This document shows, piece by piece, positions 2,712-60,600 of a stretch of 64,000 nucleotides of DNA. The stretch is from the NCBI GenBank assembly GCA_030765065.1, contig CM060984.1:103397488-103461487 (forward strand), in the 5' to 3' direction. Under the pieces are notes generated by a model. The model was not told the DNA's origin. It saw only the letters and a program-made list of their open reading frames with translations, and did not search any database. Every line of letters begins with the position of its first letter. The stretch's first letter is position 1. A program made the position numbers and the translations under genes. Source of the stretch: Deroplatys truncata (Eukaryota > Arthropoda > Insecta > Mantodea > Mantidae).

Positions 2712-3464
2712 ATGTACCCAAAACTTCGATGTCGAGATTTCGCCAGAAATACAAATTTTAAGACCCTCTGAATCAAAAAAATTAGAAATAGATTCGTATG
2801 TGTGTGTGTTTCTGTGAATATAAGAACTCAAAAACGAAAAGTTTGTCCTTATGCTCAGCATCTTCCAAGGATGGGATACAAAATATTTAACGAAAATCGT
2901 CCCACCCAAAACTACTCTTTACATGAAAAAAATGTTCGTTGTTTTTTATTTTCTTAAAAATGGCTTAACGATTTTGATTAAAATACCATATCCTTTAGAT
3001 TTTTGCATGATAAATAAAACGTATATCTTGAAAATTTTATGAGAACAGCGCATGAAGTCTTCATTCTTGATTACTTTAGCATAACCGGTATACTTTAAAG
3101 AAATACACAAAATCTTACTGCACACACAAAAGTGTAGTGCTCGTTAAAACACACAATTTATATGAAATAAAAATGCATGTGGCTTTGAAAACTTCTGAGA
3201 TTTTCTTTGTTATCAGGTTGAATTTTCAAGTGGTAATCGTTATGGTCATGCAATTTCAAAGCCATCACATATCTATCAGCTTTTAAAAATTTGACTAACG
3301 CTTTACCTACTATATCCTTCTAGTATCTGCATGAAATCTGTAAATGTGTATTGAAACCTAATATCGATTAGCAAGAAGAAAATATAAGAATAAAATTTTG
3401 TAAGAATAGTTTATAGAAGAATGAGTAGATAAATCGTGTGAATGCCACACACTAGATCTTTTGT
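2712..3464 (-). mobile_element. Family A element, old copy
   Basis: Reverse orientation. It shows the family segments in order: TCGAGATTTCGCC, a TGTGTGTGTGT tract, AACTCAAAAACGAAAAG, CATCTTCCAAGGATG, and the 5' terminus at 3425-3464. The 3' hairpin end is missing. Confidence 0.7.
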
Positions 3465-7841: not shown

Positions 7842-8920
7842 ATGCGGGTTGGACAGGTCCCACCTGGTGCCAGTAGCGCGGCAGTGATAAAGTTCCTTAC
7901 TGAACAAAACATGGCGCCAATCGAAATTCATCGTCAAATCGTCAGATCTACGGACCGAACATCATGAGCAAACAGATGGTGCGTCGCTGGTTTAGGCGGT
8001 TTTCCGAAGGTCGTCAAAGTATCCATGATGAAGAGAGCAGTGGGCGACCGTCCCTCATCAATGATGGCCTTGTTGAGCTGGTGCGGCAGTGCATCATGGA
8101 GAACCGTCGCTTCACGATTACGGAGCTCAGCAGCCATTTCCCGCAGATATCGCGATCCTTGTTACATGAAATTGTCACAAAGCACCTGCTGTACAGGATA
8201 TTGTGTGCCAGGTGGGTGTCGAGAAACCTGATACCCGAGCATAAAACGAAACGCTTAGAGGCAGCACTGTCATTTCTACAGCCGTATCATGATGGCGGCG
8301 ACAAGTTCCTCGACAGGATCGTCAAGGACGATGAGACGTGGATTTCGCACTTTACCTCGGAAACCAAGCAGCAGTAAACACATTGGCGTCACAATGGATC
8401 CCGATCAAGACGAAATTCAAACAGGCTGTGTCGGTTCATAAAGTGATGTGAACGGTGTTCTGGTGAGGAAGGGCATTCTACTCATTGACTTCCTGCCCAG
8501 AGCTGAAACTGTGAACGCTGGCCGTTACTGTGAAATACTGCGGAAATTGCGACGTGCCATTCAAATAAGAGGCGTGAATGCTTACTGCAGGTGTTGTGCT
8601 GCTCCATAACAATGCTCGTCCACATACGGCTCGGCGCACAGCAACTGTACTGCAGGAGTTCGGCTGAGAACTGTTCCATCATCCATCATACAGTCCTGAT
8701 CTTGCTCCCAGCAATTTCCATCTTTTCTTGCACCTCAAGAAATTCCTGTCCTCCGAGCAACATTTTGACAACTACGACGACCTGAAGATGACTGTCACAT
8801 GCTGGTTCCATTCACAGGCGGCAGACTTTACGAGACAGGAATACAAAAGTTGATCCCACGATACGAAAAGTGTCTCAATTGTTGTGGTGACTGTTGCCAA
8901 TAACATTTTTCATGTATGTA
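7842..8920 (+). pseudogene. mariner transposase pseudogene
   Basis: The frame opens near 7842 and reads AAVIKFLTEQNMAPIEIHRQ. One missing base at about 7954-7960 then shifts it into the 137-codon frame from 7964 (MSKQMVRRWFRRFSEGRQ, GRPSL, SSHFPQISRSLLHEI). This is the N-terminal helix-turn-helix region of mariner. Catalytic motif 1 is present as VKDDETW. Motif 2, normally HDNARPH, reads HNNARPH with the aspartate codon changed to AAC at 8608-8610. Motif 3, normally SPDLAPSD, reads APSN with AAT at 8713-8715. Stops follow from 8375. Terminal inverted repeats could not be found. It is a dead copy. Confidence 0.9.
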
Positions 8921-10983: not shown

Positions 10984-11202
10984 ACATAACTTTCTTTACC
11001 TACTGACATTTATTTTTATGTAACCTCTCCAAAGTATTTTTACGAAGGCTTATTTTTCTATCTGCTTTATGTTAATCAAGATAAATCTTTGCAGAAATAA
11101 TATATTATAAATTTCGTAATATGTACAAGGGAAATAGAGCAAACTAAATCAATTGTAATATGTTTGAAGGCCGGGCGATATGGCTATAAAATTCTTTACT
11201 GT

Positions 11203-11628
11203 GGCGCAGGTATGGGCCTCGATTAATCGGTAAATCGACCGATTGGCCGGGTGATAAGTTCTCTCGTCCAGCGTAAACACTAAAGACGCTATCGGGAGAT
11301 AACCAGAACCTTCTGGAAGTTTCCTTTTTCCCGCTTCTCGAACGCTCTGGAACTATCCGAAAAATTTCAGCTACTATATAAGCAAGCATACTCGCGAAAA
11401 AGCCAGTAAATAAGCGAGTGCGTTTCTGGTACATCAGGTGTGGTTTTACAAGTGAGTTTGTGAAAATTCTGCTACCACGCGGGATTAGAGATGTCTTGGT
11501 TTCGATTCCCCAGAAGTGAAGTAATCGAAGAAGAGGCTGCTTCTCGTGTATTTCATTACGTCGCGAAGAAATGTGAAATATAGAACTAGATCACATTACT
11601 GGAATGACAGTGAGAATTCAGTGAAATG
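11203..11628 (+). other. Insert carrying a heat-shock-type promoter
   Basis: About 426 bp absent from other family A copies. Host-repeat text TATAAAATTCTTTACTG precedes it and TTTAAAACTGTACTC follows, so some 14 bp of target seem duplicated, although diverged. It holds, in order, an inverted repeat AATCGG...CCGATT (11225-11246), two heat-shock elements, a TATA box and a 5'UTR-like stretch. A 30-codon frame follows at 11491-11583 (begins MSWFRFPRSEVIEEEAASRV). That frame matches no heat-shock protein I know. Alternative: an old solo LTR, since the block can be read as TG...CA with a near match TTTAC/TTTAA at its edges. Confidence 0.55.
11301..11381 (+). promoter_or_regulatory. Two heat-shock elements plus TATA box
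   Basis: The first element, 11306-11323, reads GAA-cc-TTC-tg-GAA-gt-TTC: four perfect alternating HSF-binding units. The second, 11335-11352, reads TTC-tc-GAA-cg-CTC-tg-GAA: three of four units. TATATAA lies at 11375-11381, 22 bp downstream, so transcription would be expected to start near 11405-11410 on the plus strand. The layout (upstream HSEs, one close to TATA) is that of insect hsp promoters. No hsp coding sequence follows within the window. Confidence 0.65.
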
Positions 11629-12111
11629 ACATTTAAAACTGTACTCTTTCCATGACATCACGAGACAAAAGTGAATAACGACATGCATTTGAAAATATTA
11701 CAAAGTTTGAGCAATTAAAACCAATATTAACGGATATATTGAAAATGGCTGCTACCACAAAAAGCTATTTGAAATAAACTGTGTGCTTTAAAGAGATTTA
11801 CATTTTTGTGTAGTACGTTCTTGTCTGTCTTTTAAAGTTTACCAATTAAACAACATGTCTGTCTATAAAGAGGACTTCACAGGCAACTCCGAAAAAATTC
11901 AAGATATACATTTTATTTTGCATGTAAATATCTTAAACACATGGCATTTCAATCAAAATTGTCAAGAGCATTTAAAACATCTTCCATGTAAAGGGCAGTT
12001 TTGGGTTTGGGGATTTTCTTGAAAATCTTGGTGTTGCATCCTTGGACAATGCTAAACCTAAATACCAAGTTTTGTATTTATCGGACATTTCGTTTTCAAG
12101 TTATGCTCTTC

Positions 12112-12144
12112 AAACACACACACACATAGACACACACACACACA

Positions 12145-59192: not shown

Positions 59193-60600
59193 CTAATTCC
59201 TCATCTGATGAAAATGTATGTCTGGTGGTTCGTATACTTCTACGGCATCATGCTTATATCTAAGGTTCCAGGGCACTGAAACGAGTTTTTCAGCTGTAAC
59301 TTGAGACAATCTGTTTCTTACCTTAGCGTGAATTCTGCCATGGGCGTACCAGTTACGATCACTGGCTGCCAACGACAATGGTATGTTCAAAATTCCTGTA
59401 GCCAGAGGATACGATTGCTTATTACATACACCAATCCACAATGTGGCTGAGAGATATGTTGAGCAGCAAGTTTGAAAAAAAAAAACCTACATGTGCTCGA
59501 AATTCCGCCAGATTAGCCACAAGAGACCCATTATCAAGTTTACACAAATCACAGAATATTTTGATGTACTCCAGTGGTTGACGTTTTTCATTAACATTAA
59601 GAATCACTCCTTAGAGTGTCTACAATGTTTGCTGCTGCATGAATTGCCTTGCACGTGAACTTTCATATCAGCCACGAAATTCCTAGCACCTAATTGGTCT
59701 TCTGTATAAATTGCTTTACAACCCTTCAACACTGAATCTACAGGTGTGGAAAGTTCAGAAAACAGCTTGTGCAAGGCTGACAAAGTAGCGTTGTCCCGTC
59801 CACTTTAATGATAGCTTCAGACTTAGGTTTCATTAGACACAAAGTTTCTAATTACTGTCAAGTCTCATCCCTCAGGAGGAACTCTTAACAGTTCTGTCGA
59901 TCCGAACACTGGGGCTAAACAGTTTCCAGTAGAGCTTCTGTGTTCCCTAGCAAACTATCGAAGTATATCACTCTAGCATCCCACCGCATTGGAGGTGAGA
60001 GTTTTAGTGTGACGGAAGAATTTCCATATTTTTATTTCCTCTTAGCCTCCAGTATTGTGTTTGAAACGTGGCTATGCTTAAAATACTTAATTATATCTTG
60101 CTTAGGAGATTTAGTTTTTATAGCACTAGTATTAGTGTAGCATTTTTCCTGCAAAAGCATATTTCGGCCGCTGTCTGTTACAACAGCGATGAATTTGTTA
60201 TTACCAATGTCGTCGATAACGTCGATGATACTTGACGCAATATACTGAGTGGTTTTCCGTTGCTCTACAGATCGAATGCTCTTAGGGTCGGTGTAATGAT
60301 AACTAAATTGAACACATTGTTGCCTGAAATATCTATCTAATCGTCCGAAATTAAGCGCATTTGACTTGTTAATCTTCTGCATAACCACTGCTTGCAAACG
60401 CTAGCATTCCATAACCAGCAAACGTCTCCCAAGAGTATCATGTATAGGAGGCTCATAACCACGATGGATCTTCTGAAACACATCTCGCCAGTATTAGTTG
60501 GATTCTAACGTTGAAATAGCTACACTTGAAGTGTAAATGGTCCTGACAATACTTTTGTTCACTTCATCATTTCCTACCGCACTTGAAGAGGATGGAGTTA
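59193..60600 (-). pseudogene. hAT transposase relic, DUF659-type
   Basis: On the minus strand from about 60540 the text is NxYWRDVFQKIHRGYEPP-like (YWRDVFQKIHRGYEPPIHDT), then QAVVMQKINKSNAL. IIDVIDDIGNNKFIAVVTDS follows, where the aspartate of VVTD is a known catalytic-core position in hAT transposases. Later frames give LSLAASDRNWYAHGRIHAKV and RNRLSQVTAEKLVSV, the C-terminal dimerisation region (S-x-RNW...H-K-RN-L...EKLV). Stops and missing blocks separate these pieces, so it is inactive. It differs in type from the other two hAT elements here. Terminal repeats not found. Confidence 0.7.

Follow-up and report, generated by a model that had tools for sequence, protein, structure and literature searches.

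The window analysed here, a stretch of 64,000 nucleotides, carries on its plus strand an insert at about 11200–11641 that is a decayed solo long terminal repeat (LTR) of a Ty3/gypsy-type retrotransposon family. Most likely it is what remained after the paired LTRs of an old element had recombined. Copies of this family align with the window from about 11197 to about 11645, in near agreement with the bounds of 11203–11628 given in the preliminary description. Alignment with these copies places the left end, TGTGGCGCAG, at 11200, and the right end at 11641 lacks the GGACAAAGTCACA terminus present in other copies. The U3-like part (11200–11404, plus strand), whose putative border with R was set by the initiator described below, comprises a 5′ region, the heat-shock elements (HSEs) and a TATA box. 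HSE1, GAACCTTCTGGAAGTTTC at 11306–11323 (plus strand), is a perfect four-unit GAA/TTC element, and HSE2, TTCTCGAACGCTCTGGAA at 11335–11352 (plus strand), has three of the four units. The TATA box, TATATAA at 11375–11381 (plus strand), follows 22 bp past HSE2. These three elements are present just as the preliminary description had claimed. An initiator-like CCAGT lies at 11403–11407 (plus strand), and transcription would presumably start at its A at position 11405, which is also the start (near 11405) proposed earlier. An R/U5 (3′) remnant occupies 11570–11641 on the same strand, with 11570–11644 matching several units of about 55 bp in two other family copies (L009 and L053).

HSE1 is the sole perfect four-unit HSE, in either register, within the 64-kb window. 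Reversed-pattern controls over the 4.29-Gb genome give a chance expectation of about 0.016 such elements per 64 kb, so that the perfect array alone is improbable by chance. The window copy is short of one HSE2 unit (the third, which is broken), of the third array, HSE3, and of the 3′ terminus. It retains HSE1, the TATA box and CCAGT, with which it could still fire, and it may have kept some residual activity.

The insert lies within another repeat, as had been proposed: related copies of the surrounding repeat continue uninterrupted across the insertion point, most clearly at three loci (L022, L044 and L054). Because these related copies lack the insert, we judge from the alignments that the surrounding repeat is merely the landing site of the LTR. 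The HSE segment is not part of that repeat, as the cargo of a Helitron or Helentron would be, since insert-free copies exist. The right flank at 11642–12140 (no strand assigned), a dispersed repeat hosting the LTR insertion, joins the left flank in those insert-free copies. The flanks of other LTR copies are mostly unrelated to one another. When 42 right and 59 left flanks were compared for shared sequence, counting only matches that begin near the border at similar offsets, three pairs of right flanks and one pair of left flanks emerged, the near-twins L023 and L025 among them. These near-identical LTR copies lie 172 kb apart (C16: L025 at 51.92 Mb, L023 at 52.09 Mb) and have common flanks, 99.8% identical over 1,200 positions on the left and 100% over 108 on the right; they probably represent a segmental duplication or an assembly duplication.

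No second LTR copy was found in the 64-kb window, and the internal-domain pieces of three family loci (L016, L068 and L069) were unmatched there, bar a short dispersed repeat that also occurs in L069. A search against Rfam gave no matches in the window. Several interspersed repeat families, in both orientations and in some stretches up to 99% alike, occupy 9.2–15.8, 27.0–32.5 and 53–59 kb, and it is in one of them that the LTR has landed. A Mos1-like mariner transposase piece lies at 7904–8374 (HTH_32, E 2.2e-8, over the cut-off; HTH_48, E 1.1e-4, below it), and a weak DUF659 match at 60032–60397 on the minus strand (E 4.8e-4) is below the cut-off.

The preliminary description had called for a genome search for other copies. 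With 11203–11628 as the query, a search of 4,289,915,091 bases in 818 contigs gave at least 40 further matches, 68–88% identical and most of them about 70%. Of 3,546 first-look candidates, 40 were scored, with 41 matches, the window included, listed; the 40 matches outside the window represent 39 places, all of which were retrieved (L009–L047). Family copies start with a TGTGACGCAG-like left end and finish with a CTGGACAAAGTCACA-like right end, and their termini, TGTGAC...GTCACA, form short inverted ends of the TG...CA type expected of LTRs. A 17-mer of the right end, AACTGGACAAAGTCACA, occurs at 2,094 genomic sites, compared with 3 in the control, and the exact junction of the right end with a primer-binding site, GGACAAAGTCACANTGGTGTCAG, occurs at 123 genomic sites, compared with none in the control. 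Nine of these 123 junctions form one array on C4 (C4:237710564–237711396) with a 90-bp spacing and one 180-bp step, seemingly a small satellite grown from the junction of LTR end and primer-binding site. We take the primer-binding site to pair with the 3′ end of a tRNA-Leu. The 22-mer of this putative tRNA-Leu 3′ end was found at 189 genomic sites, compared with none in the control, and its sites are clustered among the 100 listed. Among those 100, clusters of these tRNA-Leu-like ends lie at C3:74.37–74.49 Mb and C9:218.98–219.46 Mb, many of those on C9 at steps of about 150 bp.

The primer-binding site also recurs in the individual loci retrieved. In a sample picked by the right end alone (L068–L079, with 14 ends in 12 loci), three of the 14 ends (L068, L069 and L074) continue into TGGTGTCAGAAGTG or a near match, the primer-binding site. 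Among 56 right ends with at most three mismatches in L009–L079, six passed a loose primer-binding-site filter; four of these are convincing (L016, L068, L069 and L074) and two doubtful (L032 and L071), and the match at L068 is good over the first nine bases only. L069 is the one LTR pair that was read in detail. Its first LTR (about 117–686) is followed by the primer-binding site and then by about 950 bases, and a second LTR in the same orientation starts near 1636 and ends at 3452, where the flank begins (borders drawn by eye). The two LTRs share 80% identity across 515 alignment columns, and ATAT stands on both sides at the outer borders. A mariner-like element (Mos1-type, HTH_48, E 6.5e-8) splits the 3′ LTR of this locus at about 1700–2945. 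Two partial LTR copies are present in L068. A further candidate pair, C1:24786381 and C1:24790742, was rejected; its members are about 75% identical, and their right ends are followed by ATAC, with no primer-binding site. In some LTR copies, such as the one at L053:1416–1916 with its 8.8 units of 55 bp, the 3′ part consists of tandem repeats.

Short inverted ends could also belong to a MITE, a non-autonomous DNA transposon, that ends in the inverted repeats TGTGAC/GTCACA and duplicates a TA target. TA is present at both borders in many copies, and the target-site duplication, of about 4–6 bp in Ty3/gypsy LTR elements, is weak: an exact 4-bp match was found in 3 of 25 copies, with 1.75 expected. 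Among 32 candidate end pairs that lack a primer-binding site, some of which look mispaired, 5 had such a match, against an expectation of 2.24 (P 0.044, or 0.092 when counted letter-wise). Inverted termini are, however, also normal in LTRs. The primer-binding site after the right end at the 123 sites, with none in the control, and the paired direct copies that flank integrase remnants argue against a MITE; the junctions and the LTR pair largely refute this reading, which we consider barely tenable.

The class of the LTR retrotransposon was read from its coding remnants. No copy of the element was found intact; in L016, L068 and L069 the interior is broken and much reduced. None of the retrieved loci extends over both reverse transcriptase and integrase. 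L068 contains an integrase H2C2 zinc domain (E 2.2e-7, over the cut-off), and the interior of L069 holds two halves of such a zinc domain in separate reading frames (E 0.041 and 0.0014, both under the cut-off). The reverse transcriptase (RT) piece of L016 has the Ty3 RT 4ol8 as its best match (E 0.001). Pfam gave no match at E 0.1 for this piece or for a gag-like piece of the same locus, and no supporting match was found for the latter. Because of the RT match to Ty3 and the integrase H2C2 domain, we read the family as Ty3/gypsy, from short and broken RT and integrase pieces.

The HSE units recur in related copies, a point on which the preliminary description had staked its claim. In 39 aligned copies, which include the window and leave out L025 as a near-copy of L023, the four units of HSE1 are intact in 25, 34, 28 and 27 copies. 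The third unit of HSE2, which is disrupted in the window, remains whole in 34 of the 39, and its first unit is intact in 20 of 39 and lost in 19 of 39, with CTC in 16. HSE3, a shorter third array in about half of the copies, has two units, intact in 19 of 39 and 22 of 39. The 95 bp before the TATA box hold at least three of four HSE units in all 39 similarity-chosen copies and all four units in 19 of them; in the usable copies chosen by their 3′ end the corresponding counts are 6 of 7 and 3 of 7, and shuffles gave frequencies of about 0.02 and 0.000. In this test the near-twins L023 and L025 were both counted, and L067, whose anchor lacks TATATAA, was excluded. At least three units are present in the HSE2 region of 34 of the 39 similarity-chosen, 18 of the 22 HSE1-chosen and 3 of the 7 3′-end-chosen copies. 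In the diverged L072, only the HSE1-like array is displaced; its four-unit array is about as far from the TATA box as HSE2 is elsewhere.

The core promoter recurs as well. TATATAA is exact in 21 of 39 similarity-chosen copies, and YCAGT was found within 45 bp after 18 of 36 CTATATAAG sites, compared with 2.3 expected from mononucleotide shuffles (counted in L009–L079 and the window segment, with L025 left out). For eleven of the 18 YCAGT motifs, the distance to the initial T of TATATAA is 28–31 bp. In the U3 of this family, ahead of the core promoter, sits an array of at least four HSE units, as in ONSEN-like elements. The copies and their recurring HSE units bear out the view that a heat-inducible promoter layout resides in a repeated insert, which is hence able to spread HSEs.

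It is unlikely that the HSE-like arrays bind a factor other than heat-shock factor (HSF) or are inert, and that the copies are not heat-responsive. Outside CpG, the columns of the core HSE have a conservation of 0.908, compared with 0.835 for the rest of the LTR (P 4e-5), which is no proof of selection because the copies were picked by similarity to an HSE-bearing copy. The same core value is not clearly higher than that of the linkers (0.872, P 0.063), which counts in favour of this alternative. Against it stand the run of four inverted units spaced exactly 5 bp apart, the second array and the TATA box and initiator that follow, as well as a spacing between array and TATA box similar to that of the host hsp70 promoters at L080 and L082.

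A Pfam HSP70 search of the genome gave 59 matches, and five near-complete ones were used for their upstream regions. Three of these regions have an HSE with three of four units, and two are without any HSE of at least three units. The perfect four-unit HSE is absent from the stretch read upstream of all five, and the LTR arrays are more complete than those that precede these five hsp70 genes. At L080 and L082 the HSE with three of four units lies at −173 relative to the ATG, and TATATAA follows at −128. The near-complete hsp70 at C4:173331360–173333174 (L084) has one in-frame TAA, with TATATAA at −130 and no HSE of at least three units.

The layout and spacing at L080 and L082 resemble those of the LTR, as they might if a mobile element had taken up a host hsp promoter and multiplied it. 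A parental hsp locus, for which the preliminary description had proposed a search, did not emerge when the five hsp70 upstream regions were compared with four LTR copies by blastn (best E 0.11). Because the five upstream regions are without similarity to the LTR copies, a captured hsp70 promoter is unsupported. A very old capture could be decayed past recognition; overall we regard such an origin as very unlikely.

Perfect HSEs are far more frequent in the genome than in the controls. GAANNTTCNNGAANNTTC, the pattern in the register of HSE1, has 7,219 sites in 4.29 Gb, compared with 652 for the reversed pattern, and perfect HSEs in the other register have 4,530 sites, compared with 396 for the reversed-pattern control, an excess of 91% in each register. 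Of 27 consecutive perfect HSEs, 22 lie inside this LTR family (E at most 4.1e-9; 95% interval 0.62–0.94). Of the remaining five, one (L100) is 188 bp from an LTR match and four are without an LTR match. The 27 sites are the first in order of 50 listed among the 7,219, all on C1, and come from one region (C1:16.26–26.34 Mb). By extrapolation, the rest of the genome would resemble the classified stretch of C1, which is consistent with the excess over the control. That one Ty3/gypsy family is the source of most perfect four-unit HSEs in the 4.29-Gb genome is a tentative proposal, which we hold to be possible rather than probable.

From these analyses, we consider it likely, with a probability of about 0.75, that 11200–11641 is a solo Ty3/gypsy LTR of a family in which HSF acting on the U3 HSEs drove RNA synthesis, with heat or stress favouring copying. 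The U3 of the family carried HSE1, HSE2 and, in about half of the copies, HSE3, together with a TATA box and, some 30 bp beyond it, an initiator of arthropod type. Host heat-shock factor would bind these arrays as putative targets, and the bound HSF would drive full-length genomic RNA from the initiator near 11405. Copying would in this way be coupled to heat or stress and would scatter many HSEs, and later recombination between LTRs would leave solo LTRs. The sequences themselves establish the LTR identity, the promoter layout, the recurring HSE units, the surplus of perfect HSEs in the genome and, for the stretch of C1 that was classified, their concentration in this family; from these we infer HSF binding, heat induction, heat-linked amplification and effects on neighbours.

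The kind of phenomenon proposed here is already known, because, according to PMC12810828, plants and animals have already provided demonstrations that heat shock can activate transposable elements through the machinery of the host. The preliminary description had offered two analogies, ONSEN and the Helitrons of Caenorhabditis, and ONSEN is the nearer of the two. In the excerpts available from PMC5059998, ONSEN/COPIA78 is a heat-responsive COPIA of Brassicaceae in which a cluster of nGAAn units in the LTR forms the heat-responsive element, at least four adjacent units being the strongest class; COPIA78 has 55 copies in A. lyrata, and none of 16 fragments or solo LTRs in A. thaliana has a functional heat-responsive element. 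The likeness, as far as these excerpts go, is that of an LTR retrotransposon with a cluster of HSE units in its LTR. ONSEN is, however, a plant COPIA with tens of copies, whereas the present family is Ty3/gypsy-like, with thousands of perfect HSEs in a presumed animal genome. The hsp70 proteins, the initiator and the mariner pieces suggest that the host is an animal, probably an arthropod. Many HSEs sit here in solo or broken LTRs, and the heat response is putative.

Other systems are likewise similar in part. DIRS-1 of Dictyostelium, which is also a repetitive retroelement, resembles the family described here in that its terminal repeats contain a heat-shock promoter (PMC2685390, with reference to Zuker 1984 and Cappello 1984). 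Its terminal repeats are inverted, whereas the present family has direct LTRs and an integrase remnant. To our knowledge, DIRS-1 is without an integrase. The HSE-rich Helitrons of Caenorhabditis are a mobile family that supplies many genomic HSEs, with HSF-1 binding seen by ChIP-seq (PMC6927752, in its available part); they are DNA transposons with binding data, whereas the carrier here is an LTR described by its nucleotides. In Cryptococcus, the LTR retrotransposons TCN3 and TCN12 have putative HSEs in their LTRs and are mobilised at 37 degrees (PMC12810828, in the portion available); these fungal elements have one or two putative HSEs, and that portion of the paper mentions no HSE load across the genome. 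The known systems, as far as these sources cover them, differ from this LTR in class, host or copy number. A search of the open-licence literature by title and the start of the abstract returned no arthropod LTR retrotransposon with HSEs, which does not imply its absence from print; the papers listed include one on bovine leukemia virus with HSF1 and LTR terms and one on Drosophila CLAMP.

If the proposal holds, a Ty3/gypsy family that seeds thousands of perfect HSEs would be a test case for the takeover or dilution of a stress network by a mobile element. The same HSE-seeding family would also be a test case for heat-driven bursts of copying.
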